From Polyangiaceae bacterium (GTDB lineage Bacteria > Myxococcota_A > Polyangia > Polyangiales > Polyangiaceae), in assembly GCA_019637295.1 (NCBI GenBank), contig JAHBVX010000003.1, positions 434,001 to 498,000 of the forward strand: 64,000 nt of DNA, given 5' to 3'. Both the position numbers and the translations under genes were made by a program. Shown here one piece after another: positions 2,624 to 47,785 of the stretch (positions within the stretch are counted from its first letter, which is position 1; each line of letters starts with the position of its first letter). The notes below the pieces were generated by a model, which saw only the letters and a list, made by a program, of their open reading frames with translations, was not told the origin of the DNA and searched no databases.

Positions 2624-2629
2624 TAGAGT
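2624..2629 (+). promoter_or_regulatory. TAGAGT hexamer, candidate -10 of a leaderless mRNA
   Basis: TAGAGT stands exactly 6 nt before the GTG start at 2636, so transcription would begin at the start codon itself. No Shine-Dalgarno sequence is present. No clear -35 was seen. It is one of six genes in the window with the same arrangement. Confidence 0.45.
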
Positions 2630-2635
2630 ACACCG

Positions 2636-3340
2636 GTGCACCTCGCCCCTCTATTCGCGCTCTTCGCCCTGGCCTGCTCGGGCGCGGACTTCAGCTCGAG
2701 CGGCCCAGCGGGCGACGCCGGCGGCTCCACGTCGGGCGGCAGCGGCGGCTCCGGCACCGGAGGCGCAGGCGGCTCCAGCTCGGGCGGCAGCGGCGGCTCT
2801 AGCACAGGAGGCGTCAGCGGCGCCGCGGCAGGAGGCAGCAGCGGCGCGGGCGGCGGAGCTGGCGTCGCGGGGGCCGGCGGCAGCGGGGGTACCGTGACGG
2901 CCTGCAGCGGCGACGATCACGCGCCCTGCGCCAGCGATCAGTTCTGCGATGCCCTCGGCTGCGGGGTCGGGGTGTGCAAGCAGAAGCCCGCCGAAGGCGC
3001 CGGCCTCAACCCCGTCTGCGGCTGCGACGGCGTGACGTACTACAACGCTACCATCGCGGCGCGACGCCGCGTCTCGGTGTTCACCGCGGGTCGGTGTCCG
3101 GCGCTCACGGCAGTGACCTGCGGCGAGGCGGGAGGGGTGGAGTGCGACGCTGGCCTGTACTGCAGCTACGAGCTGTCGGGCGCGGACAAGTGCGCCGTTC
3201 AGGAGAAAGCGGGCATCTGCTGGGGGCTTCCGGCCAACTGCTCGACCGCCAACCCCACGGCGAGCTTGTGCGACCCGAGCTGCCTGTCCGTCTGTGCTGC
3301 GATCAAGACACAGAAGACCTGGTACGACGAGGGATGCTGA
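2636..3340 (+). CDS. Lipoprotein with Gly/Ser linker and Kazal-type inhibitor domain
   Basis: 234 residues, GTG start. The signal peptide ends in a lipobox (ALAC, Cys14). Residues 17-85 are a Gly/Ser/Ala-rich flexible linker. Residues about 100-155 contain a Kazal-like pattern, with PVCGCDGVTYYNA as the diagnostic core and a closing GRC. A second Cys-rich segment (about 158-234, with CWGLPANC) may be another disulfide-rich domain. Kazal domains are canonical serine-protease inhibitors, so this could be a surface-displayed inhibitor protecting a predatory cell from its own or prey proteases (inference). The neighbours are other exported proteins. Confidence 0.8.
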   Translation: MHLAPLFALFALACSGADFSSSGPAGDAGGSTSGGSGGSGTGGAGGSSSGGSGGSSTGGVSGAAAGGSSGAGGGAGVAGAGGSGGTVTACSGDDHAPCASDQFCDALGCGVGVCKQKPAEGAGLNPVCGCDGVTYYNATIAARRRVSVFTAGRCPALTAVTCGEAGGVECDAGLYCSYELSGADKCAVQEKAGICWGLPANCSTANPTASLCDPSCLSVCAAIKTQKTWYDEGC

Positions 3341-3384
3341 GCGTTGCCGGCTGCCAGATCGACCGCTCCGTGCCGCCGTGGTAG

Positions 3385-3501
3385 GTGAGCCAAGGTCGAG
3401 ACCGCCAAGCGCAGGTGGTGCAGAGCGTGTTCGAGAAGCTGCGGGAGGCGAAGTCGGACGTCAGCCAGCTCGAGACGCTCCCGGCCGAGTCAGACGAGTA
3501 G
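3385..3501 (+). CDS. Possible small protein of 38 aa in a 222-bp intergenic gap
   Basis: The gap between 3340 and 3563 holds a GTG-started frame of 38 codons preceded directly by an in-frame TAG. The product is hydrophilic and probably helical (for example VVQSVFEKLREAKSDVSQLE) with an acidic end. No Shine-Dalgarno sequence is evident. It could be a genuine small protein or the worn 3' end of a lost gene. Nothing else recognisable lies in this gap. Confidence 0.25.
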   Translation: MSQGRDRQAQVVQSVFEKLREAKSDVSQLETLPAESDE

Positions 3502-3562
3502 GCGGGCAATCCGCCCCTCACCTGGCACCGACCGCTTGTCAGTCCCGCGCGGATCGCGCACC

Positions 3563-3892: not shown

Positions 3893-3898
3893 AGACCT

Positions 3899-7742: not shown

Positions 7743-7748
7743 AATGTA
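7743..7748 (-). promoter_or_regulatory. TACATT hexamer, candidate -10 of a leaderless mRNA
   Basis: On the minus strand TACATT lies 6 nt before the ATG at 7736 of the amidohydrolase gene. No Shine-Dalgarno sequence is present. Same geometry as at 2624, 31655, 37691, 41317 and 47780. Confidence 0.4.
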
Positions 7749-13221: not shown

Positions 13222-13293
13222 CGCGCGCCACCGTTAGTGCTCGCGATTTCGGGGTGTGTCGACCTAGAGTACGAAGCTGGCGCCGCGAGCTTC

Positions 13294-16200
13294 ATGTCTA
13301 CCGTCCGTCCCCCGACTGCGTCCCTCGAGAGCCCGTCCGACCCCAACGTCACAGCTCGAGCGCTCGACTGGATTCGAGAAGAGCTCGAGCTCGCCGAGCC
13401 TGGGTTGGCGCAGGCCGTGCTCTTGCACGAGCTCGCGACGCTCGAGGAGCTCGCGGGGGACGAGTCGAGCGCCGCACGGGACTACCTGGAAGCCATCAAC
13501 TCCGAGCCCGAGTTCAGCGAGCCGCTCGAACGACTGATCGCCATCCTCTCGGCGCGCGGCTCCAACAAGAACCTGGCCAAGCTGCTCGACCGCCTATCTG
13601 AGGTGGCGGATGGTCCCGAGGAGCGGCTGCGGGCGGCGCTCGAACGCGCCGCCTATCAGCTCGAGCAGGACCAGGACCCAGACGCGGCGCGGGCACTGCT
13701 GGAAGAGAGCGCCGACATCCTGGCCGGGGACACCACCGCGTGGCTGATGCTCGAGACCCTCGCTGGCCGCTTGGGCGACGAAGAGCTCAGGCTGCAAGCC
13801 CTCGCCGCTCGCCAGAGCGCGTGTGCGCCGGGCGAGTGGAAGAGCCTGCTGTCCGTGGACCTGGCGCGACTGCGCGCCAGTCGCTCAGAGGGCGACGACG
13901 CCGTTGCGACGCTGCAGGCCGCGCTCGGCGACAAGAATCCCGCCACGTTCTTGGTGCTCCGAGCCCTCGATCAGATCGCCGCAACCCTCGGGAACGACGC
14001 GGTGCTCGCGCAAGCTCGCGAGCTGATGGCCATGTCCATCCAGAGCGCGATCGACGACAGCGCGGCGGGCGACTCGCTCGGCGTCCCGGTCCACATGCGA
14101 ACCCCGGCCCACGCCGCCGACGTGCTCTATCGCGCCTCGGAGTGCCACCGCCGCAGCGGCGACGCGGTCAAGGCCACCAACTTGCTCGAGCGTGCCATCG
14201 CAGCGGCACCCGACGAGACGGTGCTCGCGCGCGCCCGCATTCGACTGGCGCAGACCACCGGGGACACGGAGACGGCGGCCAAGCTCGCGCAAGCCACCCT
14301 GGGTCGCGGGGCGACCGGGGCCCTGGCGGCGGCGCTGTGGATGAAGGTGGCCGAGCGGGCAGCCGAGCAAGGGGACGGCGCCGCCGCCCTCGATGCCGTC
14401 AACCAGGGCCTCGCGGCGGAGCCGGGCAGCATCCCCGCGCGAGCGTTGCAGCTCGACCTGCTGTTCGGCAGCGCCGACCCAACTGCCTTGCCCGCGGCGC
14501 TCGAGGCCGCCGCCGACTACCTCGCAACGGACGACGGGCGCGCGCGGTTCTACCTCGGGGCCGCCGACGCCTGGGCACGTCGCGCGCGCGACGTGGCCGG
14601 CGCCAAGGCCGCCCTCAGTCAGGCCAGCATGCTCGGGGCTAGCCCGGCCACCGTGGCCCGAGTCTCTCGCTTCTTGGCGTCCGTCGCCGAGTCGCCTGCC
14701 TGGTACGACGAGGCGACCCGTCGGCTGCTCGCGACGGGCGCGTCCGAGAGCGAGCAACTCGGGCTGTGGTTCGAGCTGGTTCGCTCGCGACTCAGCCGCG
14801 GGGAACGCGCAGCCGCGCAACAGACCCTTGACGGCTTGACCACGACCCCGGGCGGCGCCCTGCTCGGGCGCGTGCTCGCTGCCTACGTGCTCGCGCTGGA
14901 CGAGCCCGCCTCCGGCGTCGAACCCCTCGTCGCGCTCGCGGACGACGAACAGCGCCCGGACGTCGCCCGCGCGTTGCGCCTCGCAGCAGCGCTACGCGCG
15001 GACGTGGCCAACGATTCGGTGCGAGCGCGAAGCTTGCTCCAGGCGCTGCACGACGCGGACGCCTCCGACGTCGTGGCCGCGGTTGCCCTGGCTGGTTCGT
15101 GCCGGCGCGACGGCGACTTGGGGGCAGCCGCCGCGACCCTCGCCGCTACGGCGCTCACGACCGAGGACGTCGATCTCGCCGCGGCGCTCGGGCTGGAGGC
15201 CGGCATTGCGTTTTGGCACTCGGGCGCTCGCGACCAGGCCGTGGAGTGCTTTCAGGCCGCTGCACGCCAGCGACCCGACGCCAGCGGCGCGCTGCTCTCC
15301 TGGGCGCTCTGCGCCGAGCGACCGGACTCGCTCGCTGCGCGACGTGAGGCCTTGGCTGCGGCCGAGGGGGAGGACCGGCGCGCACTGCAGCTCGAGCGCT
15401 TCGCGCTCGAGCTCGGCTCCGACGGGGACGAGACGAACGCCGCTGCTGCGCTGGACGACGTGACCGGCAGCGACGAGCTGGCGCGAGCCGCCGACCTCGC
15501 ACGGGTACTGTGGAGAAGCGAGCGCGCGAGCGCCGAGCTGGCGGCCGACGCCGTCGAGGCGCTGTCCCTCGCGGGGGGTGCGTGCGCCGCGTTGGTCCGC
15601 TCCGCGGAGCACGCCGCGCGGCTCGCCCAAGAGCCGACCCCGGACGTGACCGCGCTGCTCGAAACAGCAGCGAGCTGGGCCGCGGCAGATGGCGGGGTTG
15701 CTGCTTCGCTCGAGCTGCTCTCCTTCGCCACCGCCGCCGGTGACGTGCCCGCCGAGCTCGAGGCGCGCCACATGCTCGCCAGCCGGCTTGGCGGCGAGGC
15801 GGGGAGCGCGCTCGGCGCGAGCGCCGCGATCGTCGCCTCGCTCACGAGCGCTGAACCGCCCGCGCTGGTCCGCGGCGATTCGAGCGTCCTGCGCCTCACG
15901 AACCTCGAGCTCGCGCTGCCCGGCGCGGACCCGAACAAGCGCGCAGCCGCGCTGCTCGGAGCGGCAGATTGTTTCGGAGCCGATCACAACGCGCTGGTGT
16001 CGGCGCTCGCCGGGTACAACCTGCTCGCGGCAGGTCGCCTCGATGACGCGCTCGCGGTGTTCCGCTCCGTGGCTGAAGCGCACCCGGACGAGCTGATGGG
16101 CTGGGAGGGGCTGCGCGCGGTCGGCGAGGCCACTGGCGATCGCGCGCTCGTGGCCGAGGCCAGCGCGTCCCTCGGAGACGCGGTCTCGGATGCCGCGCGC

Positions 16201-18015
16201 GGTGCGGAGCTGTGGGAACAGACTGCCCTGATCTTGATCGACGAACTGAATGACACGGGTCGCGGCGAGTTCGCGCTCAGCCGCGCCGTCGAACGTGACG
16301 TGACCCGCTTCGTCGCGTTCGATCGGTTGTTCCGGCTGGTGCGTGCGCGCAAGGACGATCCACGCCTGCTCGAGCTGATCTCCAAGCGCCTCGAGGTCGC
16401 GGAGGACCCAGAAGAGATCGTCAAGTTGTTCTGGGAGCGCGCTCGCGTGCTGCGGCAGTCCGGGGACCGAGAGGGCGCCCTTGCCGCCCTGGAGAACGTC
16501 ACCATGCTCGAGCCGGACCACGTGGGCGCGCTCGCGCTGTCGGGCGAGATCTGCATCACGGCCGGACAGTTCGATGAAGCCGCGGACCGACTCGCGCGGC
16601 TGTCCACCCTGGACGAAGCGCCGGCCAAGCAGAGGCTGATGAGCGGCGTCGCGGCCGTGGACATCTTCGAGAACAAGCTCAAGCAACCGGAGCGCGCCCT
16701 GCAGGTGCTGGAGAGCATCTACCAGACCGGGCTCTCGACGCTGCCGGTGCGGGAACGGCTCGCTCGCCTCGCTGCCAAGCTCGGCGCGTGGCAACGCGCA
16801 ACGACAGTGCTCGAACAACTGATGCACGAGCGCGACACGAGCGAGTCCCGGATCGAGGCGGCGCGGCTTGCGATGGTCATTCATCGCGATCGACTCCAGG
16901 CGCCAGCGGGCGCCGGCCCCGCCGTCGAGAAACTGCTGGAGGAGGCACCCGAGGACGGCGAAGCGCTCGAGCTCGTGATCCAGGGCGTCTTGCCGGCGGA
17001 TCGGACACGTCGCGCGCTGGAGCGCGGTCGCGCGGCGATCGTCGGCCAGCTCATGAGCGAGCCGCTCGACGCCGAGCGCGTCGACCGGCTGGCGCGAATC
17101 GCTGCGAGCCTGGACCACCCACCGCTGCGTCAGGCTGCGCTGGGTGCCCTGGTCGCGCTGGGCGAGGGCAGCCCGGAGGTCGATCGCGAGCTCGCGGTCC
17201 TCGATCAACGTGTGGCTCGCGTTCCACAGATCGCCATCGACGCGCACGCCATTCCGGACTTGTGCGATCCCGCCGATCGCGGCCCGATCGCCGACCTGAT
17301 GCGCGTGCTGGCGACGCTGCTGGTCGAGACAATCGGCCCGGGCCTCGAGGCCTTCGGCGTGACGAAGAAGCAGCGCGTCGATCCGAAGGTGGGCTTGCCG
17401 GTCCGCAACGAGGTGGTCGCGTGGTCCGGCGCGCTCGGTGTCGGGGACTTCGACCTCTACGTCGGCGGCCACGACCCGGAAGGGGTATTCGCGGTCCCGC
17501 TCGAGAAGCCGGCCATCATCTTGGGCGCGAACGTGCGAGCCCCACTGGCGGCGGCCCACCGCAGCGCGGTCGCTCGCGAGCTGTTCGCGCTCAAGCGCGG
17601 CACGACGCTGCTCCGGCACCGGGACGCAACGGACGTGGCCGCCCTGATCGTCGCAGCCTGCAGCGTGGTCGGCGTCGGCGTGCCGTCGCCTCAGTACGCG
17701 ATGCTGGGCGAGTTTCAGCGCGTGTTGTCGAAGGAGTCGCGCAAGCTCAAGAAGCTCATCTCCGAGCTCGCACCCCACGTCGCACACGCGGCGCAGGATC
17801 CCGTCGTATGGGTACACGCCGCCACCGCGAGCCTCGATCGCCTGGCCGCGATCGCGGCGGGCGACGTCTCCTACGTGCTCAGTGACACGAGCACGACGCG
17901 TGGCACCCTGGGCGCTTCTATGGAGGCTCAAGCGCGCGCCGCCCGCCTGCTCGCCTTCGTGCTCTCTCCAACGTACCTCTCGCTGCGCGAGATGCTCGGG
18001 ATGGGTGTACGATGA
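13294..18015 (+). CDS. Giant TPR/alpha-solenoid protein with M48-like C-terminal domain
   Basis: 1573 residues from the ATG at 13294; the frame also has a GTG at 13237, but its 19-residue extension looks non-coding. There is no signal peptide or membrane helix. Most of the protein is degenerate TPR-like helical hairpins rich in Ala, Leu, Asp and Glu. The last 240 or so residues form a different globular domain (AVPLEKPAIILGANV, then ARELFALKRGTTLL, then LDRLAAIAAGD) that matches the C-terminus of the next gene. The order of strand, helix and DRxAxxAxGD-like segment recalls M48 zinc peptidases without the HExxH residues (inference). It overlaps the next gene by ATGA. A TAGAGT at 13265-13270 may be its promoter -10. 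Function unknown; probably a cytoplasmic scaffold. Confidence 0.75.
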   Translation: MSTVRPPTASLESPSDPNVTARALDWIREELELAEPGLAQAVLLHELATLEELAGDESSAARDYLEAINSEPEFSEPLERLIAILSARGSNKNLAKLLDRLSEVADGPEERLRAALERAAYQLEQDQDPDAARALLEESADILAGDTTAWLMLETLAGRLGDEELRLQALAARQSACAPGEWKSLLSVDLARLRASRSEGDDAVATLQAALGDKNPATFLVLRALDQIAATLGNDAVLAQARELMAMSIQSAIDDSAAGDSLGVPVHMRTPAHAADVLYRASECHRRSGDAVKATNLLERAIAAAPDETVLARARIRLAQTTGDTETAAKLAQATLGRGATGALAAALWMKVAERAAEQGDGAAALDAVNQGLAAEPGSIPARALQLDLLFGSADPTALPAALEAAADYLATDDGRARFYLGAADAWARRARDVAGAKAALSQASMLGASPATVARVSRFLASVAESPAWYDEATRRLLATGASESEQLGLWFELVRSRLSRGERAAAQQTLDGLTTTPGGALLGRVLAAYVLALDEPASGVEPLVALADDEQRPDVARALRLAAALRADVANDSVRARSLLQALHDADASDVVAAVALAGSCRRDGDLGAAAATLAATALTTEDVDLAAALGLEAGIAFWHSGARDQAVECFQAAARQRPDASGALLSWALCAERPDSLAARREALAAAEGEDRRALQLERFALELGSDGDETNAAAALDDVTGSDELARAADLARVLWRSERASAELAADAVEALSLAGGACAALVRSAEHAARLAQEPTPDVTALLETAASWAAADGGVAASLELLSFATAAGDVPAELEARHMLASRLGGEAGSALGASAAIVASLTSAEPPALVRGDSSVLRLTNLELALPGADPNKRAAALLGAADCFGADHNALVSALAGYNLLAAGRLDDALAVFRSVAEAHPDELMGWEGLRAVGEATGDRALVAEASASLGDAVSDAARGAELWEQTALILIDELNDTGRGEFALSRAVERDVTRFVAFDRLFRLVRARKDDPRLLELISKRLEVAEDPEEIVKLFWERARVLRQSGDREGALAALENVTMLEPDHVGALALSGEICITAGQFDEAADRLARLSTLDEAPAKQRLMSGVAAVDIFENKLKQPERALQVLESIYQTGLSTLPVRERLARLAAKLGAWQRATTVLEQLMHERDTSESRIEAARLAMVIHRDRLQAPAGAGPAVEKLLEEAPEDGEALELVIQGVLPADRTRRALERGRAAIVGQLMSEPLDAERVDRLARIAASLDHPPLRQAALGALVALGEGSPEVDRELAVLDQRVARVPQIAIDAHAIPDLCDPADRGPIADLMRVLATLLVETIGPGLEAFGVTKKQRVDPKVGLPVRNEVVAWSGALGVGDFDLYVGGHDPEGVFAVPLEKPAIILGANVRAPLAAAHRSAVARELFALKRGTTLLRHRDATDVAALIVAACSVVGVGVPSPQYAMLGEFQRVLSKESRKLKKLISELAPHVAHAAQDPVVWVHAATASLDRLAAIAAGDVSYVLSDTSTTRGTLGASMEAQARAARLLAFVLSPTYLSLREMLGMGVR

Positions 18016-21000
18016 CCGACGATCCGAAGCGCAAACCAGGGGTCAGCGGCGCTGGACGTAGCGGCAGCGCCCGCAGCATCGGGGAAGAGCTCGGTGAGCT
18101 GGACTTCGAGCCCGACGCGCTGCTCGACTCGCTGCTCTCGGACGACCCACCTCCGGCCGCGCCGCCCGCACCACCGCCGCCGCCGCCGCCCCTGGCTCCC
18201 GGCCCGCCGCTGATCCAGCCCGAGACTCGCGCCTTCCAGGACGACGACGAGACCCACGTCGGCACGGCCGAGGAGCTGACGAAGCTGCAAGCGCAAATTC
18301 GCGGCCGCAGCGCGAGCGCCGAGGTGGACGCGCTGCTCGGCGTAGCCGAGCCCGCGCCGCGTCCCGACCTGGCGCCGCCAGCCCGAGCCGGCCGTCCCGC
18401 GCCCCCGCCGCCTCGACCGGCCCCGCCCCGAGCGGGGCTCCCGCCCCGCCCCGCTCCACCGCCACCGACGCCAACGCCCGAGGTCGCGCCCGAGGCCGAG
18501 CCGGTGTTCGCCGACGCGACGGAAGACGAGCTGGATCTCGACTCTCTCGATCTGCGCGCCGACGCGCCGATGCTCGATCGCGCTACCCCGGCGCAGGGCG
18601 TGGACGCGTCCGTGCTGCGCGAAGCCACCGGCTCGCTCCACGACGAGGCTGCCACCCTCGTGGGGAACCTCGATGAGCTGCTCGGCGCGCCCCCGGCGCA
18701 GGCGCCGTCGCCCACCGCCCCGACACCGCCCGCGCCACCGGCCCTGCCGCCCGACGCGCCCCCGGAGGACGAGCTCGATGCGTTGCTCGACGCCGAGCTC
18801 GAGCCCGGGTCACGGCAGAGCGCGCCGCCCGCCGAGGACGAGTGGCTGGCCCTGCCTTCGGTTCCGCCCGAGGCGGACGACTCCGCGCTCGACGCCACGC
18901 CAGCGGAGGAGCCCGCCGCGCAGCAACTCGCCAAACGCGACCTGGTCGCGCAGTGGATGGCTCGAGCCGAGTGGCTCGAGAACGAAGCGCAGTCCCGCAC
19001 CGATGCCGAGAGCCGCTCCCGAGCGTTGGTCGTCGCCGCCGAGCTGTGGGCGATGGCCGGTGACATCGAGCGGGCGCGCGAGGTGATCAGCGAGGCGCAC
19101 GCGGCCTTCGCCGCGTCACCCATCGTGCAACGACAATCGCGACACCTGGCGCAGGCGGACGGCGACTGGAAGGGCGCCAACCAAAGCCTCGAAGCGGAGA
19201 TGCGACACGGCTCGCCCGAGTGCCGCGCCCAGGCCGCCTACCTCGCGGCCGAGGTGCAGCGGCTGAAATTGAACGACGCCGACGCGGGCGCGAAGAAGAT
19301 CGAAGCGCTGGCCCGCCTCGCGCCGGACGACGCGCGCGCACATGTCGCCCGAATCGCCGCAACCCTAGGCCAGTCGAACGCACCGCCCAAACTGCGCCTA
19401 CCGGACTCCCCCAAGCTCGCGTCGTTGAGCGAGGCGCTGGCGCTGGTGAGCTTCTTGCGCGGTGGCGACGCCGCCCCCGCACACGACGCGAGCGCGGCGC
19501 TCGAGCTCGCGCGCCGCGCCCTCGCCAAGCACGATCGCTCGGCGGCCGCGGAGTACCTGCACAAACTGGCGCACGTGCCGGCGCTGGAGGCAGGTGCGCT
19601 GTGGCTGGCGGCGGCCCTGGACGCGCCCGAGCGAGCGACGAGGCCACGCGCCATCAAAGCACTGTCCCGCTTGGTGGAGCTGTCGCGCAGCCCGCTGACG
19701 CAACGCTCGCTCGCTGCGCGCGCGCTGGAACAGGGCGACGCTTCCGCCGTGTCTGCGGCCCTCCAGGGCGCTTCCGCCGCGACCTTCAGCAACGCCGATC
19801 GCGTGGCGCTCGCAGCGTTGACGGGCGGTCGCGAGGCGGTCGTGCCCTGGCTCGCGACCCTGGCAGACTCACCCAGCCTGGCCCCGCTCGCGGCCGCGGC
19901 CGCGGCCGCGACTGCCCCGCCGGCGTCCCCCCCGATGGCGCACGCGGGCGAGCCGAGCACCCGGACCCGAGTGATGCTGGGTCGCGCTCTGGCCGCTGCC
20001 TGCGTCCCGGGCGCCGACCCGACGCTCCTGCCCTCGGCGGTAGATCTCTTTCGCAGCCAGCTCGACGAGTCCGCGCTCGGTCCCGCGCTCGGCGCTGAGC
20101 TCGCGCTGCGAGCCAAGAGCGTGTCACGACTCACCTCGACGCTGCTCGACCTGCTCGCGACCGACGGCAACGAGCGCGAGCTGGAGCTGGCAGCCGGGCT
20201 CTTGCACGAGCTCGCAGGCGAGCGCGATGACGCGGGTCGCCACTACGCCAAGGCCCTCGCGGCCGACCCGAACAGTGAGGCAGCCGCTCGCGCGCTGGTC
20301 GCGCAATCCCCCCCCGACGCGGTCGTCGAGCTGCTGGTAGCCGCAGCGGAAGCCGCCGGGGATGACGTGGCGCGCTCTCTGCTGCTGCTCGAGGCGGCGC
20401 TGCGCTCACCGGACGACACGCGCGTCGACGCGCTCGTCGACCAGGCCGCCGGCGCCGCCCCGTCGTTGCCCTTCGCGCCACGGGTCGCGGAGGAGCGTGC
20501 TCGCCAGCGGGGGGACGCGGCGGGTCTGGTCGGCTGGCTGCGGCGTCGCCGCGAGTTTCTCTCGGACCCCATCGAACGCGCGCTCGACGCGGTGCGGGAA
20601 GCCTGGCTGGTGGCCGAGGACGACCTCGACGCCGCCCGCACGCTGCTCGGCGAGGCCAGCGCAGCGCGACCAAACGACGTGGCGCTGGCCGAGCTCTACG
20701 AGCGACTCGTCCCGGGCGCGGCTGTCGAGCGCGCGCGCTGGCGCGAGGAGGCTGCGAGCCACGCTCAGGGGGCCGAGCGCGCGGCGCTGCTGCTGGAAGC
20801 GGCGCTCGAGCATGAGCGCGACGGCGATCTGGCCAGCGCGGCGCGGGCCGCCGCGGGCGCAGCGGACGCCGGTGGGTTGGCGCAGCTCACGGCGGAGCGG
20901 CTCGCGGCCTACGACGCGCGCGCGACTGACCTGGCCGAGTCGCTGCTGGCGCGAGCGAGAGAGTCGACCGAGCCCGCGGTGCAGCGCGACCTGTACGAGC

Positions 21001-23432
21001 GCCTAGCTGACTTGGATCGCGCGCGCGGAGACCTGTCCAGCGCGCTGCTCTGGGACAGCGCCATACTCGAGTCGAAGCCGGATCACCTGCCCTCGCTCCG
21101 CCGCCTGATCCACGCCTACACCGGGGACGGCCGCAGCGAAGAGCAAGCCGCGGTGGCGGCCAGACTGAGCACGCTGCTCGAGCCCGCGGAGACGCGAGCC
21201 CACGCCTTCCTCGCGTGGCGACACCATGCCCAGACGAAGGATGCTGACGCCGAGCGAGCGCTCCTGTCCCGGATGAGCGGAGCGGAGGATGCACCCCTGT
21301 GGGCGCTGCGCGGGGCCCTGGCCCTCGCGCGCCGCGAGTCCGATGACGCTGGCGTGCTCGCAGCCAGCGCGGCGCTGAGTGAGCGCTCGAACCGCGCCTT
21401 GGACGCCGCCACGCTGGCGCTCCGGGGCGCCGAGGCCGCGACCCGGCTGGGGCAGCTCGAACGCGCCCGCGCCTTGCTGGAGCGCACGGTGGAGCTGTTG
21501 CCCGAGCACCTCACCGCGCTCTGGGCGGAGGCGTTCGTTCACGACAAACTCGGAGAGACGGCGGCCTCCACCCATGCACTGGAGAGTCTGGCCGACGCCG
21601 CGCGGGCCGAGCGCCATCAGCTCGAGTGCTGGCACGCCGCCGGCGTGGCCTGCATGGACCGCCTGGGCGATGCCGATCGCGCGCTCATCTGCCTGGAGAA
21701 GGCCGCCGAGATCGACCTGACCTACGCCGATCTATTCGAGCGACTCCGCGCTCAGTATGTCGCGCGCGAAGATCGCGGTCGTCTCGCCAGCCTGCTGCAG
21801 CGGCGGCTCGATCAGACTACGGATCCCGAGGAGCGGGTCCAACTGGAGGTGACCCGAGGCCTGGCGCTAGCCGAGGTCGGGGACAAGGAAGCGGCCAAGC
21901 AGGCGCTGGCCGCCGCGCTCGACGAGAACCCCGATCACGTCGACGCCCTCGATGCCTTCGCGGAGCTGTGCAGCGCCGAGGGCGATTGGGACGGCGCCGA
22001 ACAGGCCTGGATTCGCCTCGCGCGCAGCACTGCGGACGCCGACCGCCAGGTGGAGATCTACCGACGACTCGGCGTCCTGTACGACCAGCACCTCCCTAAC
22101 CCCGAGCGCGCCGAGCTCGCGTACAAGGAAATCCTCAAGCGACACCCGAACGACATCGGCGCACAGCAACGCTTGGTGTTCGTCTATGGTGCGCGGGGCG
22201 AGGTGGAGCAAGCCGTGCAGGTGGCGACGGAGCTCCTGGAACGAGCGACCAGCCCGGAGGACAAGCGCGATCGGACGCTGATGCTCTCACGCGTCTACGA
22301 CGAGATCGCAAGAGATCGGCGCAAGGCCGAGGCCACCCTCGACCGGGCCCGCAAGACGTGGCCCCAAGACGGCTTGGTCCTCAAGACACTGGCCGAGTTC
22401 TACCAGCGCCATGGTGAGACCGCCGCGCTCAACGTGTTGCTCGATCGCGCGGCCAACGATGCGCGACGCGCCCTGTCCACCGGACGCTTCGACGCCACGC
22501 TGTTCTCCCAGCTCGCCGCGGTAGCGGAGCTGCGGGGTGGTGAAGGCGCGGCCGCCGTCACCCGCGCGACCCTGGCGGCGATCGAGGGCAACCCAGCGCA
22601 GGTGTCGGGCGCGGGTATCGCGGCCGCTGACGCCAAGCTCGACGAATTGCTCGCGCCCGAGCTCTTGACCCTGCCGCTGCGAGCGCTGCTGCACAAGAGC
22701 GGGGATTGCCTGGACGCAGCCTACGCCGTGGACCCGCGGACCCTGCGTGCAGCGCCATTGCCGCAACAGCAGCAAGCGATGACCGCGGAGCTGACCCAGA
22801 TCGCGACGCGCTTCGGCATCACCGGGCTTCAGGTGATGGCGTCGCCCACCATCGGCTCGCAGTGCATACCGCTCAGCACCAACCCGCCGCTGCTCGTGCT
22901 CGGCCAGGAGCTGCTCGAGAACCCCCGGCGCGAGCTGTTCGACTTCCTGCTCATCCGCTCGCTCAAGATCATGCAAGGCCGGGCGTCGGCGCTGGCACGC
23001 ACCGCACCCATCGATTTGTGGCCAGTGCTGGCGGGGTATCTGAGCGTCTTCGCCAGCAACTGGCAGGCGCCGAACGTGGACGCGAAGAAGCTCGCGGAGG
23101 CTCGCTCCCGCGTCCAGAGCGCCATTACCCGCCGTCTCGACGACGACGTCCCGGTGCTCGCGCTCGAGGTGATCGGCTCAATCGGCAATCGCGCCAGCCA
23201 GGTCGGCACCGCCATCCACATGTGGGGCAACCGGGCGGCGCTGCTGGCCACCGGGGACCCATCCACGGCCTTCTCGGCCATCGCACTCGGGGCTGGTCAG
23301 GAGCCGCCTCCCGCCGACGGCGTCGAGCGGGTGAAGTGGATCGTGCGCCACCCGGAAGCGCGAGACCTGGCCGTGTTCAGCGTGAGCGAGCAGTACGCCG
23401 ACGCTCGGCGCCGGGTCGGCCTCGGGGGCTGA
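18012..23432 (+). CDS. Giant TPR/alpha-solenoid protein, partner of the preceding gene
   Basis: 1806 residues; ATG overlaps the stop of the previous gene (ATGA), so the two are translationally coupled and probably made in fixed ratio. Residues 1-300 are acidic and Pro-rich disordered sequence (long poly-Pro stretch near 40-60). About 300-1580 is a TPR-like solenoid with recognisable units such as ALICLEKAAEIDLTYADLFE. The C-terminal 220 or so residues (CIPLSTNPPLLVLGQEL, LFDFLLIRSLKIMQG, GNRAALLATGD) match the C-terminal domain of the neighbour segment by segment. No export signal. It ends 2 bp from the convergent pbpC. Function unknown; the pair looks like paralogues that diverged after duplication. 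Confidence 0.75.
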   Translation: MTDDPKRKPGVSGAGRSGSARSIGEELGELDFEPDALLDSLLSDDPPPAAPPAPPPPPPPLAPGPPLIQPETRAFQDDDETHVGTAEELTKLQAQIRGRSASAEVDALLGVAEPAPRPDLAPPARAGRPAPPPPRPAPPRAGLPPRPAPPPPTPTPEVAPEAEPVFADATEDELDLDSLDLRADAPMLDRATPAQGVDASVLREATGSLHDEAATLVGNLDELLGAPPAQAPSPTAPTPPAPPALPPDAPPEDELDALLDAELEPGSRQSAPPAEDEWLALPSVPPEADDSALDATPAEEPAAQQLAKRDLVAQWMARAEWLENEAQSRTDAESRSRALVVAAELWAMAGDIERAREVISEAHAAFAASPIVQRQSRHLAQADGDWKGANQSLEAEMRHGSPECRAQAAYLAAEVQRLKLNDADAGAKKIEALARLAPDDARAHVARIAATLGQSNAPPKLRLPDSPKLASLSEALALVSFLRGGDAAPAHDASAALELARRALAKHDRSAAAEYLHKLAHVPALEAGALWLAAALDAPERATRPRAIKALSRLVELSRSPLTQRSLAARALEQGDASAVSAALQGASAATFSNADRVALAALTGGREAVVPWLATLADSPSLAPLAAAAAAATAPPASPPMAHAGEPSTRTRVMLGRALAAACVPGADPTLLPSAVDLFRSQLDESALGPALGAELALRAKSVSRLTSTLLDLLATDGNERELELAAGLLHELAGERDDAGRHYAKALAADPNSEAAARALVAQSPPDAVVELLVAAAEAAGDDVARSLLLLEAALRSPDDTRVDALVDQAAGAAPSLPFAPRVAEERARQRGDAAGLVGWLRRRREFLSDPIERALDAVREAWLVAEDDLDAARTLLGEASAARPNDVALAELYERLVPGAAVERARWREEAASHAQGAERAALLLEAALEHERDGDLASAARAAAGAADAGGLAQLTAERLAAYDARATDLAESLLARARESTEPAVQRDLYERLADLDRARGDLSSALLWDSAILESKPDHLPSLRRLIHAYTGDGRSEEQAAVAARLSTLLEPAETRAHAFLAWRHHAQTKDADAERALLSRMSGAEDAPLWALRGALALARRESDDAGVLAASAALSERSNRALDAATLALRGAEAATRLGQLERARALLERTVELLPEHLTALWAEAFVHDKLGETAASTHALESLADAARAERHQLECWHAAGVACMDRLGDADRALICLEKAAEIDLTYADLFERLRAQYVAREDRGRLASLLQRRLDQTTDPEERVQLEVTRGLALAEVGDKEAAKQALAAALDENPDHVDALDAFAELCSAEGDWDGAEQAWIRLARSTADADRQVEIYRRLGVLYDQHLPNPERAELAYKEILKRHPNDIGAQQRLVFVYGARGEVEQAVQVATELLERATSPEDKRDRTLMLSRVYDEIARDRRKAEATLDRARKTWPQDGLVLKTLAEFYQRHGETAALNVLLDRAANDARRALSTGRFDATLFSQLAAVAELRGGEGAAAVTRATLAAIEGNPAQVSGAGIAAADAKLDELLAPELLTLPLRALLHKSGDCLDAAYAVDPRTLRAAPLPQQQQAMTAELTQIATRFGITGLQVMASPTIGSQCIPLSTNPPLLVLGQELLENPRRELFDFLLIRSLKIMQGRASALARTAPIDLWPVLAGYLSVFASNWQAPNVDAKKLAEARSRVQSAITRRLDDDVPVLALEVIGSIGNRASQVGTAIHMWGNRAALLATGDPSTAFSAIALGAGQEPPPADGVERVKWIVRHPEARDLAVFSVSEQYADARRRVGLGG

Positions 23433-31654: not shown

Positions 31655-31660
31655 TATCCT
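31655..31660 (+). promoter_or_regulatory. TATCCT hexamer, candidate -10 of a leaderless mRNA
   Basis: TATCCT, preceded by TTGG, lies 6 nt before the ATG at 31667. There is no Shine-Dalgarno sequence. Part of the recurrent TAnnnT-N6-start pattern. Confidence 0.45.
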
Positions 31661-34127: not shown

Positions 34128-34175
34128 GGCTCGACGGAGGGTAGGCGTGACCGGGCCCGCTGGCCCAGTTTCGTG

Positions 34176-34227: not shown

Positions 34228-34243
34228 TAGTGTGCTCCCGAGC

Positions 34244-37604: not shown

Positions 37605-37690
37605 CGCCGGGGGAAGTGTACAGGGTTGCCGGTCCGAAGCGCCAAGCGCGGGTCATCGCGCGGCCCTTGGGCAGCGGCCGGGAATTGACC

Positions 37691-37696
37691 TACCCT
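37691..37696 (+). promoter_or_regulatory. TACCCT -10 with TTGGGC -35, leaderless start
   Basis: TACCCT lies 6 nt before the ATG at 37703, and TTGGGC at 37667-37672 is 18 bp upstream, a normal sigma-70 spacing. The 98-bp gap after the PLP gene contains nothing else obvious. Confidence 0.5.
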
Positions 37697-37702: not shown

Positions 37703-38506
37703 ATGCAGCCCCCCTGGTACTCGGAAGCCGTCGTCCCCGCTCATGATCCGGGGCTGTCACCCGGCGCGTCCGGCGCCCCCGAGGTCAGCGTCATCCGCGC
37801 GCTCAAGGACGTGTTCGCCGATCCCGAGTGGAAGCACAACGTGCTGTTCGCGCTCATCTTCATGATCATACCCATCGTCGGCCCCATCGCCCTGTCCGGC
37901 TGGATGTGCGAGATCCAGCAGCGCAAGGCGCGCCGGCACCCGTCGCCAGTGGTGTACATCGAGTTCGCGGACTTCGGCGAGTACATCAAGAAGGGGCTCA
38001 CGGTGTTCCTCGTGTCGCTGGTGAGCACGCTCCCGCTGATGGTCGTGTTGTATGGGCTGTTGGGCGCGATGGCGGCCTTCGTGTTCATGACCATGTCGGC
38101 GACGGGCGAGGCGCTCGCCGGCGTGGCCGTCGGACTGGTCGGTGGCCTAGTCACCGCGCTGATCATGTTGTGCGTGGGCGTCGTGATCAACGCGCTGACC
38201 ACCCGGGCCGAGCTCACGGAGAACTTCGGCGAGGCGTTTCGGATGAGCGAGCTGATGCCGTACATCAAGGCGACCTTCTGGCGGGTGTTGGTCAAGAACA
38301 TCGTGTTCGGCTTCGTCGCCTTCGGGATCGTGCTCCTGGGCATGCTGGCGTGCTACGTCGGTCTGTACCCCGCGGTGGCGGTGATCCAGATCGCGGCGAT
38401 GCACCTGCGCTTTCAGGTCTATGAGGAGTACTTGTCCCGCGGTGGCGCGCCCATCCGGGTGAAGGAAGCCGTCGCGCTCCCCTCCGAGCAGCGCGCCCAG
38501 TACTGA
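37703..38506 (+). CDS. DUF4013-family membrane protein, first of two
   Basis: 267 residues from the ATG at 37703; the same frame is open far upstream, but that part is a shadow of the PLP gene. The opening ALKDVFADPEWKHNVLFAL, then IPIVGPIALSGWMCEI, is the DUF4013 hallmark. About four to five hydrophobic helices follow (for example about 52-70, 92-150, 185-215). It is an integral inner-membrane protein of unknown function. A second DUF4013 gene starts 9 bp downstream, so they are tandem duplicates, perhaps forming a hetero-oligomer. Confidence 0.85.
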   Translation: MQPPWYSEAVVPAHDPGLSPGASGAPEVSVIRALKDVFADPEWKHNVLFALIFMIIPIVGPIALSGWMCEIQQRKARRHPSPVVYIEFADFGEYIKKGLTVFLVSLVSTLPLMVVLYGLLGAMAAFVFMTMSATGEALAGVAVGLVGGLVTALIMLCVGVVINALTTRAELTENFGEAFRMSELMPYIKATFWRVLVKNIVFGFVAFGIVLLGMLACYVGLYPAVAVIQIAAMHLRFQVYEEYLSRGGAPIRVKEAVALPSEQRAQY

Positions 38507-38515
38507 GGGGTCGCG

Positions 38516-39469
38516 ATGCCGCTCGAGCCCAAGGCGTTGATCGAGACGGAGGGCGAGGAGCTCGAGGAGCTTCGCCGGGTCGAGGCCTCGCCGCGGGACG
38601 AGGTTAACGTGCTGCGCGTACGGGTCGAGAGCGAGGACCCCTTCGCGCGAGATCTCGACGCCATCGGGTTGCCGCTGGCGGCCGTGCCCAAACAGCCCGC
38701 GCCCGGCCCAGTCGCGCCGCGGCCGGTGAGCGCCGTCGAAGCGCTCACCTTCGCTTTCACACCCGAGCGCTGGGCGCTGCGGGTCACGCTCGCGAGCCTC
38801 TGGCTCGTGATCCCCGTGCTCGGACCGCTCGCGGTGCGGGGTTGGGCGAGCGAGGCTCACGTGCGCCTCGCTCGCCACCACCCCGACCCGCTGCCGGTCC
38901 CGCGCTGGCGGGACCTGCTGCACTACGCGCGGCGCGGGACGCCCTCGGGGTTGGTGTCGCTGGCCGCCGCTTCGGCGCTGTTGACGACCCTGGCGTTCGC
39001 GTTCTTCGTGCTCAACGCGGGCCTGTGGGCGTCGGTGTTGGCGGGTGGTCCGCTAGCCATCGGGCTGCTCGTCGGTGGCGTGCTCGCGTCCGTCACGCTC
39101 GCGAGCCTGGTCGCGATCACATCCAACGCGGTGCTCACTCGCGCGGAGCTCGGCCGCAGCCTGGCGGTCGCGCTGGCGTCGGGTCAGGTCTGGCCGCTGG
39201 CCCGCCGCGGCGTCGCCCGAGTGCTCTGGTCTCTGCTGCTGTTCACGCTGCTCGCGGCGGTCTGTCTCGGGCTGGGCTCCACACTGCTGTGCGTCGGCGC
39301 GCTGCCGGCGTGGGTGGTGGTCGAGGTGGGCGCGAGCCACCTGCGTCACCAGCTGTACCAGCGCCAGCGTAGGCTGGGCGCTCCCGCGATCGAGCTGCCC
39401 GACGCCGAGCTGTTGCCCTCCGAGCGGCACCTGCTCGCGGTGGGGCGCCTGGAGGAGCGAGCGCGATGA
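38516..39469 (+). CDS. DUF4013-family membrane protein, second of two
   Basis: 317 residues; GAGGGG lies 5 nt before the ATG. A charged N-terminal extension of about 75 residues precedes the DUF4013-like core (EALTFAFTPERWALRV, VIPVLGPLAVRGW, RWRDLLHYARRG), followed by several Ala/Leu/Val membrane helices. It is a diverged paralogue of the preceding gene and shares its order of motifs. The stop overlaps the gamma-glutamyltransferase start (ATGA), suggesting one transcript and joint function at the envelope. Confidence 0.82.
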   Translation: MPLEPKALIETEGEELEELRRVEASPRDEVNVLRVRVESEDPFARDLDAIGLPLAAVPKQPAPGPVAPRPVSAVEALTFAFTPERWALRVTLASLWLVIPVLGPLAVRGWASEAHVRLARHHPDPLPVPRWRDLLHYARRGTPSGLVSLAAASALLTTLAFAFFVLNAGLWASVLAGGPLAIGLLVGGVLASVTLASLVAITSNAVLTRAELGRSLAVALASGQVWPLARRGVARVLWSLLLFTLLAAVCLGLGSTLLCVGALPAWVVVEVGASHLRHQLYQRQRRLGAPAIELPDAELLPSERHLLAVGRLEERAR

Positions 39470-41316: not shown

Positions 41317-41322
41317 TACCCT
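41317..41322 (+). promoter_or_regulatory. TACCCT hexamer, candidate -10 of a leaderless mRNA
   Basis: TACCCT lies 7 nt before the ATG at 41330 in the 43-bp gap after the GGT gene. No Shine-Dalgarno sequence is present. Confidence 0.4.
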
Positions 41323-41329: not shown

Positions 41330-42670
41330 ATGGCCCACTCCGCCGTTCGCGCGCGCCTCTGGTGGATGATCGGCATCTCCCCGCTGGCGGTGGCGACCTG
41401 TGCGCGGGACGGTGGCGAGGCACGGTTCGTCGAACCAGCGCCTGAGCCGCTCGAGCCGCCCGCGTCGCCACCGCAGGTGGCCACGGACGCCGGCGCCGAG
41501 CCGGGCGCGGACTCCGCCACCGCGGTCGTGACCACCGTGGCCGTGGACCCGGACGCCGCCGCGCTCGCTACCCAGTCGCTGATCCCCGAGCCGCCTCCGG
41601 GCACATGGTTCGTCGAAGCACCCACCAACCAACGCTGGTGCACCACTCGCTCGCTGCGCTGCCAGAGCGGACACCTGACGCCACCGTCCGAAGAGCGGGA
41701 CCCGAAGACCGGCTGCCCTGCGTCCCTAACGGTGGCCTGCTCCTGCAGCCCCGCGAGCCCATGCCTCGAGCCGAGCCTGGGCTGCAGCGCGGCGCTGGAC
41801 ACCGACATCACTCGACGCGAGCGCCTGCGGCGCTCGAGCATCGTGGACGGTTGCTGCTACTCCATGCCCCAGACGTGCGTGCCCCCCTACGTCGGCAGGC
41901 CGCTGTGGGTGGCCGGCGAGCTGCGCACCGCGCCGAGCGTGCCGAGGCGGGACTGGACCACGAAGTACGAGGGCGACGCGACGGGCCTCTTCGCCGACGA
42001 GTGGCGTCGCATCGCCGAGCTGGAGCACTCGAGCGTGGCCTCCTTCGCGCGCACCACCCTGGGGTTGCTCAGCCTCGGCGCACCCGCCGAGCTGCTCGGC
42101 GACGTTCAGCTCGCGGCCCGCGACGAGATCGAACACGCCCGGCTCGCCTACGGCGTCGCCAGCCGTCTGTGCGGCGAAGAGTTGGGCCCCGGTCCCCTCT
42201 GCCTCGCGGGGCTCGCGCCACCTCCGGCGGACCTCGAGACCTTGGCGCGCGAGACCTTGCGCGAGGGCTGCGTGGAAGAGACAGTGGGCGCGATCGTCGC
42301 GCGGGAGCGCGCGGCCCTCGGCCCCGCCGCCGAGGTGTTCACGCGTATCGCGGACGACGAAGAGCGCCACGCCGCGCTGGCGTTCCGCATCTTGCGCTTC
42401 GCGCTCGAGGCCGGCGGGGAGCGCGTCGCAGGGGTCGTGCGCGACGAGCTCACGGCGATCCTCGCGCAGGCGTCGGACCAGGACGGCCGCCGCGCGCGCG
42501 TGCTCATCGACGTCGTCGCCCCCACCGTCGCTCGCCTGCTCGACTCCGCCGGCGTGAACGGGGTCGATTCGCGACAGCTCGTCAGTCCTGCTCCAGCTCC
42601 GCCCGTCGCGCCAGAAGCTCCGCCCGCGCCGCGGCGGACACGCTCGGATACTTCAGCCCCATCCGCTTGA
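41330..42670 (+). CDS. Lipoprotein with ferritin-like di-iron domain
   Basis: 446 residues. The N-terminal signal has a probable lipobox (AVATC, Cys24). A Pro/Ala-rich linker and a Cys-rich region (about 100-190; CSCSPASPC, CCYSMPQTC) precede a four-helix bundle. The bundle carries two helix pairs with ELEH, EIEH and later EETVGA and EERH, the E / ExxH pattern of ferritin-like carboxylate-bridged di-iron proteins. It may oxidise or store iron, or be an oxidase of unknown substrate. The last 30 or so residues are Pro/Ala-rich and lie in an 89-bp overlap with the convergent PPK2 gene. Confidence 0.75.
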   Translation: MAHSAVRARLWWMIGISPLAVATCARDGGEARFVEPAPEPLEPPASPPQVATDAGAEPGADSATAVVTTVAVDPDAAALATQSLIPEPPPGTWFVEAPTNQRWCTTRSLRCQSGHLTPPSEERDPKTGCPASLTVACSCSPASPCLEPSLGCSAALDTDITRRERLRRSSIVDGCCYSMPQTCVPPYVGRPLWVAGELRTAPSVPRRDWTTKYEGDATGLFADEWRRIAELEHSSVASFARTTLGLLSLGAPAELLGDVQLAARDEIEHARLAYGVASRLCGEELGPGPLCLAGLAPPPADLETLARETLREGCVEETVGAIVARERAALGPAAEVFTRIADDEERHAALAFRILRFALEAGGERVAGVVRDELTAILAQASDQDGRRARVLIDVVAPTVARLLDSAGVNGVDSRQLVSPAPAPPVAPEAPPAPRRTRSDTSAPSA

Positions 42671-45357: not shown

Positions 45358-45417
45358 AGCTCGGATTGTGCACCCACCGCCGCCCGCCGGCCAGCCAAAA
45401 CACGGGCCCCGCCGAGC

Positions 45418-46284
45418 TCAGACCTGCAGCGCAGAACAGAGCGCGCGCAGCTGTCCTCCAACTCGCACGAACCGTTCGTTGGGCTCCACTGCCAGGGACT
45501 GGCGCACCCAGTCGTCCACCGCAGGGGGCAATTCGGGGCGAAAAGCGCGCAGGCTCGGGCGCGGATCTCGCGTCACCGCGCGCATCAGCTGGAACGCGTC
45601 GTCGCCGACGAAGGGCGGCCTACCCGCGAGACAGCGGAACACGATCGCACCGAACCCGTACACGTCGATGCGCTGATCGAGCCGGGCTGGATCCCCGAGC
45701 CAGGCCTCCGGCGCCACGTAGCTCGGAGAGCCGGCCACGGTCCCCTGCAGGGTCACCCCGCGCAGGTGAACGAACTTGGCGAAGCCGAAGTCCAGCAAGC
45801 GCACGCCGCCGCCGTGCGCCGCGTCGATCACGAAGATGTTCGAGGGCTTCAGATCCCGGTGCACGATGCCGCGCTCGTGGGCCACGTCCAAGGTCGCCGC
45901 GATGGGGTCGAGGATCTGCACCACCTCTGCTGCGCTCATGCGCTGCTCCCGAGCCTCGAGCGCGCGCAAGCGATCTTCGAGCTCTTCGCCGTGTAAGAGC
46001 TCCATCACCAGCGCCATGCAGCCATCGTCGGTGAAGCACTGATCGAGGGCGCGAACGGCGTGGGTGCGCATGAGGGTCGTCATCGCGCGTGCCTCGCGGA
46101 ACATCCGCTCGACGAACGCTTCGTCCCGTTGGCTGGCGTCATAGAGTACCTTGATCGCCACGCCGTCGCCGTCCCGCAGGTCGCGGGCGCGATAGACGGC
46201 GCTCTGCCCGCCGCGGGCGATCAGCGCCTCCAGCCGGTAGCGCCGGCCGAGCACCTCCCCGCTGCGGTCACGCAGCGTCCTCAC
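45418..46284 (-). CDS. Soluble eukaryotic-like Ser/Thr protein kinase
   Basis: 288 residues, GTG start overlapping the upstream small ORF. All main kinase elements are present: Gly-rich loop IARGGQSAVY (22-31), Lys45 in VAIKVL, Glu64 in FREA, catalytic HRDLKPSN (142-149), DFG (165-167) and APE (191-193). The protein is only a kinase domain, with no membrane helix or sensory module, so its input must come from a partner. Myxobacteria encode many such Hanks-type kinases. It lies third in an operon after an FAD oxidoreductase and an 80-residue protein. Confidence 0.93.
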   Translation of the reverse strand: MRTLRDRSGEVLGRRYRLEALIARGGQSAVYRARDLRDGDGVAIKVLYDASQRDEAFVERMFREARAMTTLMRTHAVRALDQCFTDDGCMALVMELLHGEELEDRLRALEAREQRMSAAEVVQILDPIAATLDVAHERGIVHRDLKPSNIFVIDAAHGGGVRLLDFGFAKFVHLRGVTLQGTVAGSPSYVAPEAWLGDPARLDQRIDVYGFGAIVFRCLAGRPPFVGDDAFQLMRAVTRDPRPSLRAFRPELPPAVDDWVRQSLAVEPNERFVRVGGQLRALCSALQV

Positions 46285-46523
46285 CGGGCGTCGACCTCAT
46301 CCGCCCCGAGCGCGCGCTTCGGCCGAAAGCTGCGCTCGACGGCGAGGAAGCTGGCCTGCGGTACGCGACAGAAGGCCGCCGCGTGGCCCTCGCCTTCGCT
46401 GCGCACACCGACCGCGTCGTGCTCGATGCCCAGCTCGCCGAGGCGCGCCGCGAGGTGTCGCTCGAAGTGGCGGGCGGTAGCGTCCGCCGCGTCGCCAAAG
46501 AAATCCCAGAAGTAGTAGCGCAT
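46281..46523 (-). CDS. Small conserved-looking protein of unknown function
   Basis: 80 residues. It begins MRYYFWDFFGDAADATARHF and has a compact alpha/beta look, with one Cys and a GEGHAAAFCRVP strand pair, ending in FRPKR. It starts 5 nt after the FAD oxidoreductase and its stop overlaps the kinase start, so all three are co-translated. I do not recognise the family. Its codon pattern (third-position GC) fits a real gene. Confidence 0.7.
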   Translation of the reverse strand: MRYYFWDFFGDAADATARHFERHLAARLGELGIEHDAVGVRSEGEGHAAAFCRVPQASFLAVERSFRPKRALGADEVDAR

Positions 46524-46528
46524 CGCGC

Positions 46529-47773
46529 TCAGGGTGACGCTCCATCGCGCCGCCGGCTGGCGCCGTATACCGCTTTGAAGGCGAGCAGTCGCAGGCGCAC
46601 CAGACCGGGCTCGAACACGTCCCCGGACAGCAGCGACGTGACGGCTTGCTCCATCTTGAGCAGGTTGTTCGGACGGGCGAACAGGCGACCCATGGTCGGC
46701 TCCATGAAGCGACAGATGAACCAGGAGAACTCCTCGAGCCCCTTGTTCACCTCCTTGGCGTAGGCCGCCTGCAGCGCTGCCTCGCGCTCGGGGCGATGCA
46801 GGACGTCGTGGACGAGCTCGGCCGCCCGCTCGGCGCTGCGCATGGCGAGATACACGCCGCTGGAGAAGACCGGATCGATGAAGGCGTGGGCGTCTCCGAC
46901 CATCAGCCAGCGCGGACCCGTCATGGCGCGTGAGCGATACGAGTAGTTGCCGGTCAGCCGTGCGGGGCCGACTTGGCTGGCGGAGGCGAGACGACGCGCC
47001 ACCGCCGGCAGCCCCGCGAGCAGCTCGGCGAGCGCCTCCGTCTCGCGCCCGCGCACGCCCTCGAGCCGCTCCGGGCGACAGACCGCGCCGATGCTGGTGA
47101 TGTCCTCTCGCAGCGGGATGAGCCAGACCCAGCCGTCATCGAAGCGCACGATGCTGATGTTGCCCGCTTCGTCGCCCTGACGCCGCGCGACGCCGGAGAA
47201 GTGAGCGAACAGCGCCGCGCTGCGGTGGGAGGGGTGGTTCTCCTTCAGCCTCAGTTTGTTGCCGAGGAACGTGTCGCGACCGCTGGCGTCGATCAAGTAG
47301 CGGGCGCTGAGCGTCTGGTCCTCGCCGGACTCACCCCGCACCGTCACCCGCACCTCGCTGTCGTCGAGCTGCACGTCCCGCGCGGTGACCCCTTCGCGTG
47401 CGTCCGCGCCGGCCCGAGCCGCGTTCTGGAACAACAGCTGATCGAGCTCGGCGCGTTTGACCTGGAACGCATAGCGATACTCGCCGCGCAGGGCTCGCGC
47501 GAACGCGTACGTGGTGTGACCCGCGTCGGTCGCATCGGCGAAGTCGGCGCCCGGCTTCTCGACGCCGATGGCCGCGACCTGCTCGAGCACACCCAGCCGC
47601 GCGAAGATCGGCAGGTTCATCGGCAGCAGGGACTCGCCGATGTGAAAACGCGGGTGCCGGTCCTTCTCGAGCAAGACGACCCGGCGACCCGCGCGCGCGA
47701 GCAGCGCGGCGGCGGTGGACCCCGCAGGCCCGCCCCCGAGGACGATGAGGTCGCAGCGAGTCGCCTTCGACAC
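46529..47773 (-). CDS. FAD-dependent oxidoreductase, flavin-halogenase-like
   Basis: 414 residues, GTG start. FAD motifs: LGGGPAGS (12-19), acidic end of the second strand (LLEKD), and GDAHAFIDPVFSSG. It also carries features of flavin-dependent halogenases: HIGESLLP, then Lys73 in VEKPGADF at the position of the halogenase lysine, and WVWLIP (215-220), matching WxWxIP. The geranylgeranyl-reductase-like branch of the same superfamily is the main alternative. The substrate is unknown and no NRPS/PKS genes are nearby. TAGGGT lies exactly 6 nt upstream of the GTG. Confidence 0.82.
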   Translation of the reverse strand: MSKATRCDLIVLGGGPAGSTAAALLARAGRRVVLLEKDRHPRFHIGESLLPMNLPIFARLGVLEQVAAIGVEKPGADFADATDAGHTTYAFARALRGEYRYAFQVKRAELDQLLFQNAARAGADAREGVTARDVQLDDSEVRVTVRGESGEDQTLSARYLIDASGRDTFLGNKLRLKENHPSHRSAALFAHFSGVARRQGDEAGNISIVRFDDGWVWLIPLREDITSIGAVCRPERLEGVRGRETEALAELLAGLPAVARRLASASQVGPARLTGNYSYRSRAMTGPRWLMVGDAHAFIDPVFSSGVYLAMRSAERAAELVHDVLHRPEREAALQAAYAKEVNKGLEEFSWFICRFMEPTMGRLFARPNNLLKMEQAVTSLLSGDVFEPGLVRLRLLAFKAVYGASRRRDGASP

Positions 47774-47779
47774 GTGTCA

Positions 47780-47785
47780 ACCCTA
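47780..47785 (-). promoter_or_regulatory. TAGGGT hexamer, candidate -10 of a leaderless mRNA
   Basis: On the minus strand TAGGGT is followed by 6 nt and then the GTG start at 47773. No Shine-Dalgarno sequence. Sixth example of the same geometry. Confidence 0.45.

Follow-up and report, generated by a model that had tools for sequence, protein, structure and literature searches.

The 64,000-nucleotide (nt) stretch of Polyangiaceae bacterium DNA analyzed here (GenBank assembly GCA_019637295.1, contig JAHBVX010000003.1, positions 434,001 to 498,000; hereafter the window, numbered from its first letter) carries a TANNNT hexamer just ahead of six start codons. As judged from the sequence, these hexamers are very probably sigma70-type -10 boxes, set so that transcription starts on the start codon and yields leaderless mRNAs. 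They exemplify a class of start-codon promoters that occurs throughout the genome; the position of the transcription start and the mechanism of initiation we infer. The upstream regions of ten genes were read in the orientation of each gene, and the spacer was defined as the number of nucleotides between the hexamer and the start codon. All six hexamers picked out in the initial annotation were recovered, five at spacer 6 and one (gene 41330) at spacer 7:

2624..2629, forward strand, TAGAGT, putative -10 element, spacer 6 to GTG 2636
7743..7748, reverse strand, TACATT, putative -10 element, spacer 6 to ATG 7736
31655..31660, forward strand, TATCCT, putative -10 element, spacer 6 to ATG 31667
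37691..37696, forward strand, TACCCT, putative -10 element, spacer 6 to ATG 37703
41317..41322, forward strand, TACCCT, putative -10 element, spacer 7 to ATG 41330
47780..47785, reverse strand, TAGGGT, putative -10 element, spacer 6 to GTG 47773

The genome belongs to the Myxococcota and comprises 7.65 Mb in 25 contigs; the FtsZ protein encoded in the window shares 65-69% identity with its counterparts at the first six loci listed (two labelled Polyangium, one Sorangium and three Polyangiaceae). The genome-wide tally covered 1.18 Mb of contig C1, 0.42 Mb of contig C19 and the window (1.66 Mb in total), in which a gene caller that relied on dicodon statistics, and picked starts solely from coding potential and the type of start codon, defined 1356 genes. 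Among the 961 genes with at least 40 nt of free upstream DNA, the hexamer occurs at spacers 6, 7, 8, 9, 10 and 11 in 37, 34, 28, 21, 20 and 17 cases, respectively, and beyond spacer 15 in about 4 cases per position. When the window is left out, 67 of 941 such genes in the remaining 1.6 Mb carry it at spacer 6-7, where 7.3 would be expected (P about 2e-40). Over spacers 5-12 there are 171 cases against 29 expected, an excess equivalent to 15% of the 941 genes. The peak is restricted to genes with free upstream DNA, i.e., those that, by upstream distance, are not operon-internal: in the 260 tight operon genes (less than 10 nt of free upstream DNA) there is not a single TANNNT at spacers 5-9. The control motifs ATNNNT and ANNNTA gave no comparable peak in the 961 genes. 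Chance and base composition were rejected as the origin of the peak on the strength of the control motifs, the control distances and the tight operon genes.

That the six hexamers are chance matches picked by eye is accordingly scarcely credible, even though they were selected by a reader, given the replication outside the window. The chance rate of about 0.3% per fixed position assumed in the initial annotation was close to the rate measured in this genome (0.39% per position, or 0.78% for spacer 6 or 7), at which six cases in fifteen would have a P of about 1e-9. The count of about fifteen candidate genes was looser, as the caller finds 20 genes in the window whose free upstream DNA measures 40 nt or more, 4 of them with the hexamer at spacer 6. 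Two of the six genes are missed by the caller: for 7736 it sets the start 42 nt downstream, and 41330-42670 is absent from its list, probably owing to its overlap filter; it also starts 31503 and 45343 elsewhere and omits 48388. Chance is refuted for the class, but single sites may yet be chance matches, 47773 and 2636 most of all.

Several features point to an ordinary promoter. When the 109 genes with spacers 5-8 are aligned on the hexamer, a TTG -35 element emerges at class level, with T in 46%, T in 29% and G in 52% of the genes at positions -23 to -21, i.e., a spacing of 17 nt; G is also frequent at -4 (55%) and -2 (48%). In the window, a candidate -35 element was noted by eye at one site:

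37667..37672, forward strand, TTGGGC, possible -35 element, 18 nt upstream of the TACCCT of gene 37703

A promoter matrix was built from the 99 genes at spacer 6-8 (split halves, 8.6 and 7.9 bits). At spacer 9-12 it detects 24 sites, compared with 0 on the reverse strand. In 435 gaps of less than 400 nt with a same-strand upstream neighbor, at a matrix threshold of 9, there are 28 sites at spacers 5-8, 7 at 9-12 and 50 at 13-268, versus 1, 0 and 6, respectively, on the reverse strand. Since its sites outnumber those of the reverse strand both at 9-12 and at 13-268, the matrix does describe a promoter, and one that also lies at leadered distances. About four in ten of the matrix sites in these gaps lie at spacers 5-12, a figure inflated by the training at 6-8. 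In the 418 divergent gaps, reverse-strand counts are high from 41 nt onward, as expected from the promoters of the neighboring genes.

The hexamer-led genes also differ from operon genes in their Shine-Dalgarno (SD) signal. All six window genes were said to lack an SD sequence, and indeed the longest match between -20 and -5 is 3 nt in each; in the four comparison genes described as SD-led (31503, 45343, 48388 and 49808), SD matches reach 4-6 nt and TANNNT is absent up to spacer 20. The two start classes proposed on this basis reappear genome-wide: SD matches of at least 4 nt occur in 65% of tight operon genes (32% in a control window), versus 28% of genes with the hexamer at spacers 5-8 (control, 33%) and 16% of those at spacers 9-12 (control, 21%), i.e., at chance level in both hexamer classes. 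Genes without the hexamer show 39% (control, 32%). A pattern for the 3' end of 16S rRNA had no match in the whole genome. In the sampled stretches GGATCACCTCC matched once, but outside any 16S context, and another 16S motif did not match. As no rRNA was found in these pattern searches, we infer a working SD system from the tight operon genes only. An Rfam search of the window gave no match.

Taken together, the genome-wide peak, its restriction to genes with free upstream DNA, the -35 element at 17 nt and the lack of SD enrichment support the leaderless interpretation offered in the initial annotation. An ordinary sigma70-type promoter, with a TTG -35 element, a 17-nt spacer and TANNNT as its -10 box, would initiate at the first letter of the start codon (A or G) or a few nucleotides before it. 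The resulting mRNA would be translated from its 5'-terminal AUG or GUG without an SD sequence, by a route proposed by analogy with other bacteria, and operon-internal genes would use SD sites. An alternative that does without promoters is that the hexamers are an A/T-rich patch under selection to leave the start codon unstructured or to bind ribosomal protein S1 on a leadered mRNA, as Nakagawa et al. 2017 (PMC5397173) discuss for the A/T-rich bias upstream of non-SD genes. We consider this very unlikely, as other hexamers of equal T/A composition do not peak in a comparable way, a TTG sits 17 nt further upstream, and operon-internal genes, whose start codons need to be just as open, do not carry the motif.

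Homologues of all six proteins were sought in 41 genomes of the family. The homologue set comprised 99 fetched loci (up to 20 per search, 10 for 37703) for which tblastn gave a match and a candidate start was present, leaving out the genome's own copies and second DUF4013 copies. In 36 of the 99, a TANNNT lies at spacer 5-8 of some in-frame start, and in 8 at spacer 9-12; six control bands of equal width gave 5, 3, 5, 8, 6 and 7. The recurrence at spacers 5-8 is clear for four of the genes, with 7 of 10 for gene 37703, 12 of 19 for 7736, 8 of 19 for 31667 and 6 of 19 for 41330. For 37703, two relatives (68% and 55% identity) keep the N-terminal MQPPW, with the hexamer (TACCAT or TACCCT) shifted to spacer 8.

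This conservation of MQPPW also speaks against the possibility that ribosomes initiate further downstream on transcripts of genuine promoters, which would leave the mRNAs leadered. The preference of the coding-potential caller for a start 42 nt downstream in gene 7736 would favor such an arrangement; ATG 7736 is the first possible start, given an in-frame stop at -18. In 7736, 31667 and 41330, however, a later start would, by our reading, cut into signal-peptide-like N-termini, and for two genes the start is pinned: 2636 by an in-frame stop at -12 (the TAG of the hexamer itself) and 47773 by one at -6, neither having another in-frame start within the next 90 nt. We therefore regard later initiation as extremely unlikely.

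A number of observations weigh against the leaderless reading or limit its reach. Its support comes wholly from sequence. Start prediction by coding potential only is imperfect, as the misplaced 7736 demonstrates, and the matrix counts at spacers 5-8 are circular, since the matrix was trained there. The control motif TNNNAT turns up 14 times at spacer 6 and 10 times at spacer 11. The hexamers before 47773 and 2636 recur in few homologues (2 of 19 and 1 of 13, respectively), and the same-genus homologue of 41330 has no TANNNT at spacers 4-13. In the genome comparisons described below, the 29 Sorangium sites show no clear -35 element, and the backward pattern, used as a control for TANNNT at spacer 6-8, speaks less clearly for an excess than the in-phase control does: its count lies below that of the forward pattern in the present genome (676 versus 831) but above it in Polyangium fumosum (1563 versus 1492) and Pyxidicoccus (786 versus 770). 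The backward pattern is, however, also raised at the control distance (1420 versus 896 forward in P. fumosum), and was therefore taken as a mismatched background. Finally, the occurrence of the hexamer at spacers 9-12 implies that some of the genes are not strictly leaderless.

This shoulder at spacers 9-12 probably represents leaders of about 2-5 nt. Of the 101 ATG genes for which no other in-frame start exists as far as +45, 31 have TANNNT at spacers 5-12, of which 13 are at 9-12; since such unambiguous genes keep the shoulder, it is not only a product of start error. In the 63 genes of the 9-12 class, A occupies position +7 after the hexamer in 19% of cases, compared with 8% and 11% at the adjoining positions, as expected if transcription starts there. 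Two window sites may belong to this very-short-leader class; they form a divergent pair, 34127 on the reverse strand and 34244 on the forward strand, with TANNNT at spacer 10 before both starts:

34138..34143, reverse strand, TACCCT, possible very-short-leader class, spacer 10 to ATG 34127
34228..34233, forward strand, TAGTGT, possible very-short-leader class, spacer 10 to ATG 34244

The distribution of the arrangement was assessed by counting TANNNT-N(6-8)-ATG against the in-phase control TANNNT-N(21-23)-ATG in 19 genomes, namely the present one, ten labelled as myxobacteria and eight others, which we chose from FtsZ matches. The counts are 831/452 in the present genome, 1492/896 in Polyangium fumosum, 968/470 in Sorangium, 770/476 in Pyxidicoccus and 330/133 in Anaeromyxobacter, and all ten genomes labelled as myxobacteria are raised (ratios of 1.28-3.58). 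The corresponding counts are 2787/2607 in Bdellovibrio, 2627/2537 in Nitrospira, 5690/5584 in Halodesulfovibrio and 2667/2468 in Binatia, and three Bacillota genomes have ratios of 0.96-1.03. In a 0.8-Mb stretch of Sorangium, 78% of which is covered by the gene caller, the highest position is spacer 6 (17 of 410 genes), with 29 genes at spacers 5-8. The 9-12 shoulder looks smaller there (11 versus 29 at 6-8, compared with 65 versus 95 in the present genome), although the numbers are small.

Within the phylum, we examined 140 Myxococcota genomes, including the present one, and scored an excess where z (the difference over the root of the sum) was at least 4. The excess is patchy, being found in 67 of the 140: 12 of 14 from the same family, 7 of 9 from elsewhere in the order, 6 of 6 from elsewhere in the class, and 42 of 111 from the rest. 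The class as a whole thus has 25 of 29, whereas the families f14 and f16, which lie outside the class, have 0 of 15 and 0 of 8, respectively. Because a higher A/T content makes an excess harder to detect, not every miss is a true absence.

Deinococcus deserti, in which leaderless mRNAs have reportedly been found experimentally, served as a positive control. With the same caller, 10 of 106 genes on its plasmid 2 (250 kb) have TANNNT at spacers 5-9, and among 40 of the 41 annotated starts of a 50-kb stretch there are 7 cases at spacers 6-9. As in the present genome the hexamer lies at 5-9, but in this small control none occurs at 10-12.

In 2011 the myxobacteria were classed among the delta-proteobacteria. 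In that year, Zheng et al. (2011, PMC3160421) described TANNNT around 12 bp before the start as a mark of leaderless bacterial genes, the same position as in the present genome, and predicted such genes for 8 of 33 genomes of delta-proteobacteria (mean 15.8%, ranging from 5.7 to 20.6) and for 3 of 3 Acidobacteria. In line with the latter entry, a Vicinamibacterales metagenome-assembled genome shows an excess of 301/136 in our counts. Of the documented leaderless genes of Streptomyces coelicolor in Table 1 of PMC3160421, 7 of 13, as read by eye, have TAnnnT 6-8 nt before ATG or GTG, as in the genes described here; their start sites were determined experimentally, unlike ours. The opinion in the initial annotation that leaderless initiation was undescribed in this group is therefore doubtful in view of the delta-proteobacterial predictions, yet the main text of PMC3160421 names no myxobacterium, with 0 occurrences of "myxo" or "Sorangium". 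The accessible text of Nakagawa et al. 2017 and of PMC10783764 likewise contains no word with "myxo" or "myxococc". A search of titles and abstract openings, in which subscription journals are sparsely covered, found no report of a myxobacterial leaderless mRNA or of genome-wide start sites in myxobacteria. More broadly, StartLink (PMC9581028) gives leaderless transcription as predicted for 21.6% of bacterial species.

The arrangement is thus not new in kind, having already been predicted for related bacteria. Compared with Zheng et al., the present analysis adds the recurrence in homologues, the operon contrast, the -35 element and the Myxococcota tally; what is added in substance is the scale in this lineage, the patchiness across the phylum and a possible class of 2-5 nt leaders. 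We tentatively suggest, although the balance tips somewhat against it, that start-codon promoters are a main mode of expression in this lineage (at spacers 5-12, they would serve about 15% of the genes that have free upstream DNA and make up roughly four in ten recognizable housekeeping promoters of same-strand gaps), with a distinct class of 2-5 nt leaders and several losses or gains within the Myxococcota. In that case the phylum, where leaderless initiation seems to be present in some families and missing from others through gain and loss, would be a natural comparative system for the adaptation of ribosomes to leaderless mRNAs. For annotators of myxobacterial genomes, gene start and promoter would coincide in a sizeable share of genes, and start callers that rely on SD sites may misplace such starts.

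The products of the six genes are diverse. Pfam matches identify 7736 as an amidohydrolase (619 amino acids), 31667 as a protein with TPR repeats (248), 37703 as a DUF4013 protein (267) and 47773 (46529-47773) as a halogenase-like protein (414) dependent on flavin adenine dinucleotide; the Pfam search gave no match for the products of 2636 (234) and 41330 (41330-42670; 446). By eye, the N-termini of 2636, 7736 and 41330 resemble those of lipoproteins and that of 31667 a signal peptide, so that four of the six look exported or lipoprotein. Lipobox proteins are enriched in the spacer 5-8 class of the genome (31 of 109 versus 94 of 791, P 2e-5; 33 of 109 versus 152 of 791, P 0.011, when any nearby start is allowed) and not in the 9-12 class (7 of 61). 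A link with lipoproteins was nevertheless dropped, as Sorangium has 1 of 29 versus 18 of 371, and two of the SD-led comparison genes also have lipoprotein-like N-termini.

Other features of the window include a second DUF4013-type gene (about 38699-39427) beside 37703-38506, the two being 31% identical; a second nearby match of this type is also present in three relatives. The best-scoring homologue of the halogenase-like enzyme in the family is only 40% identical. Very long open reading frames, of about 1600, 1800 and 1870 codons, lie at 13237-23432 and 25825-31428.

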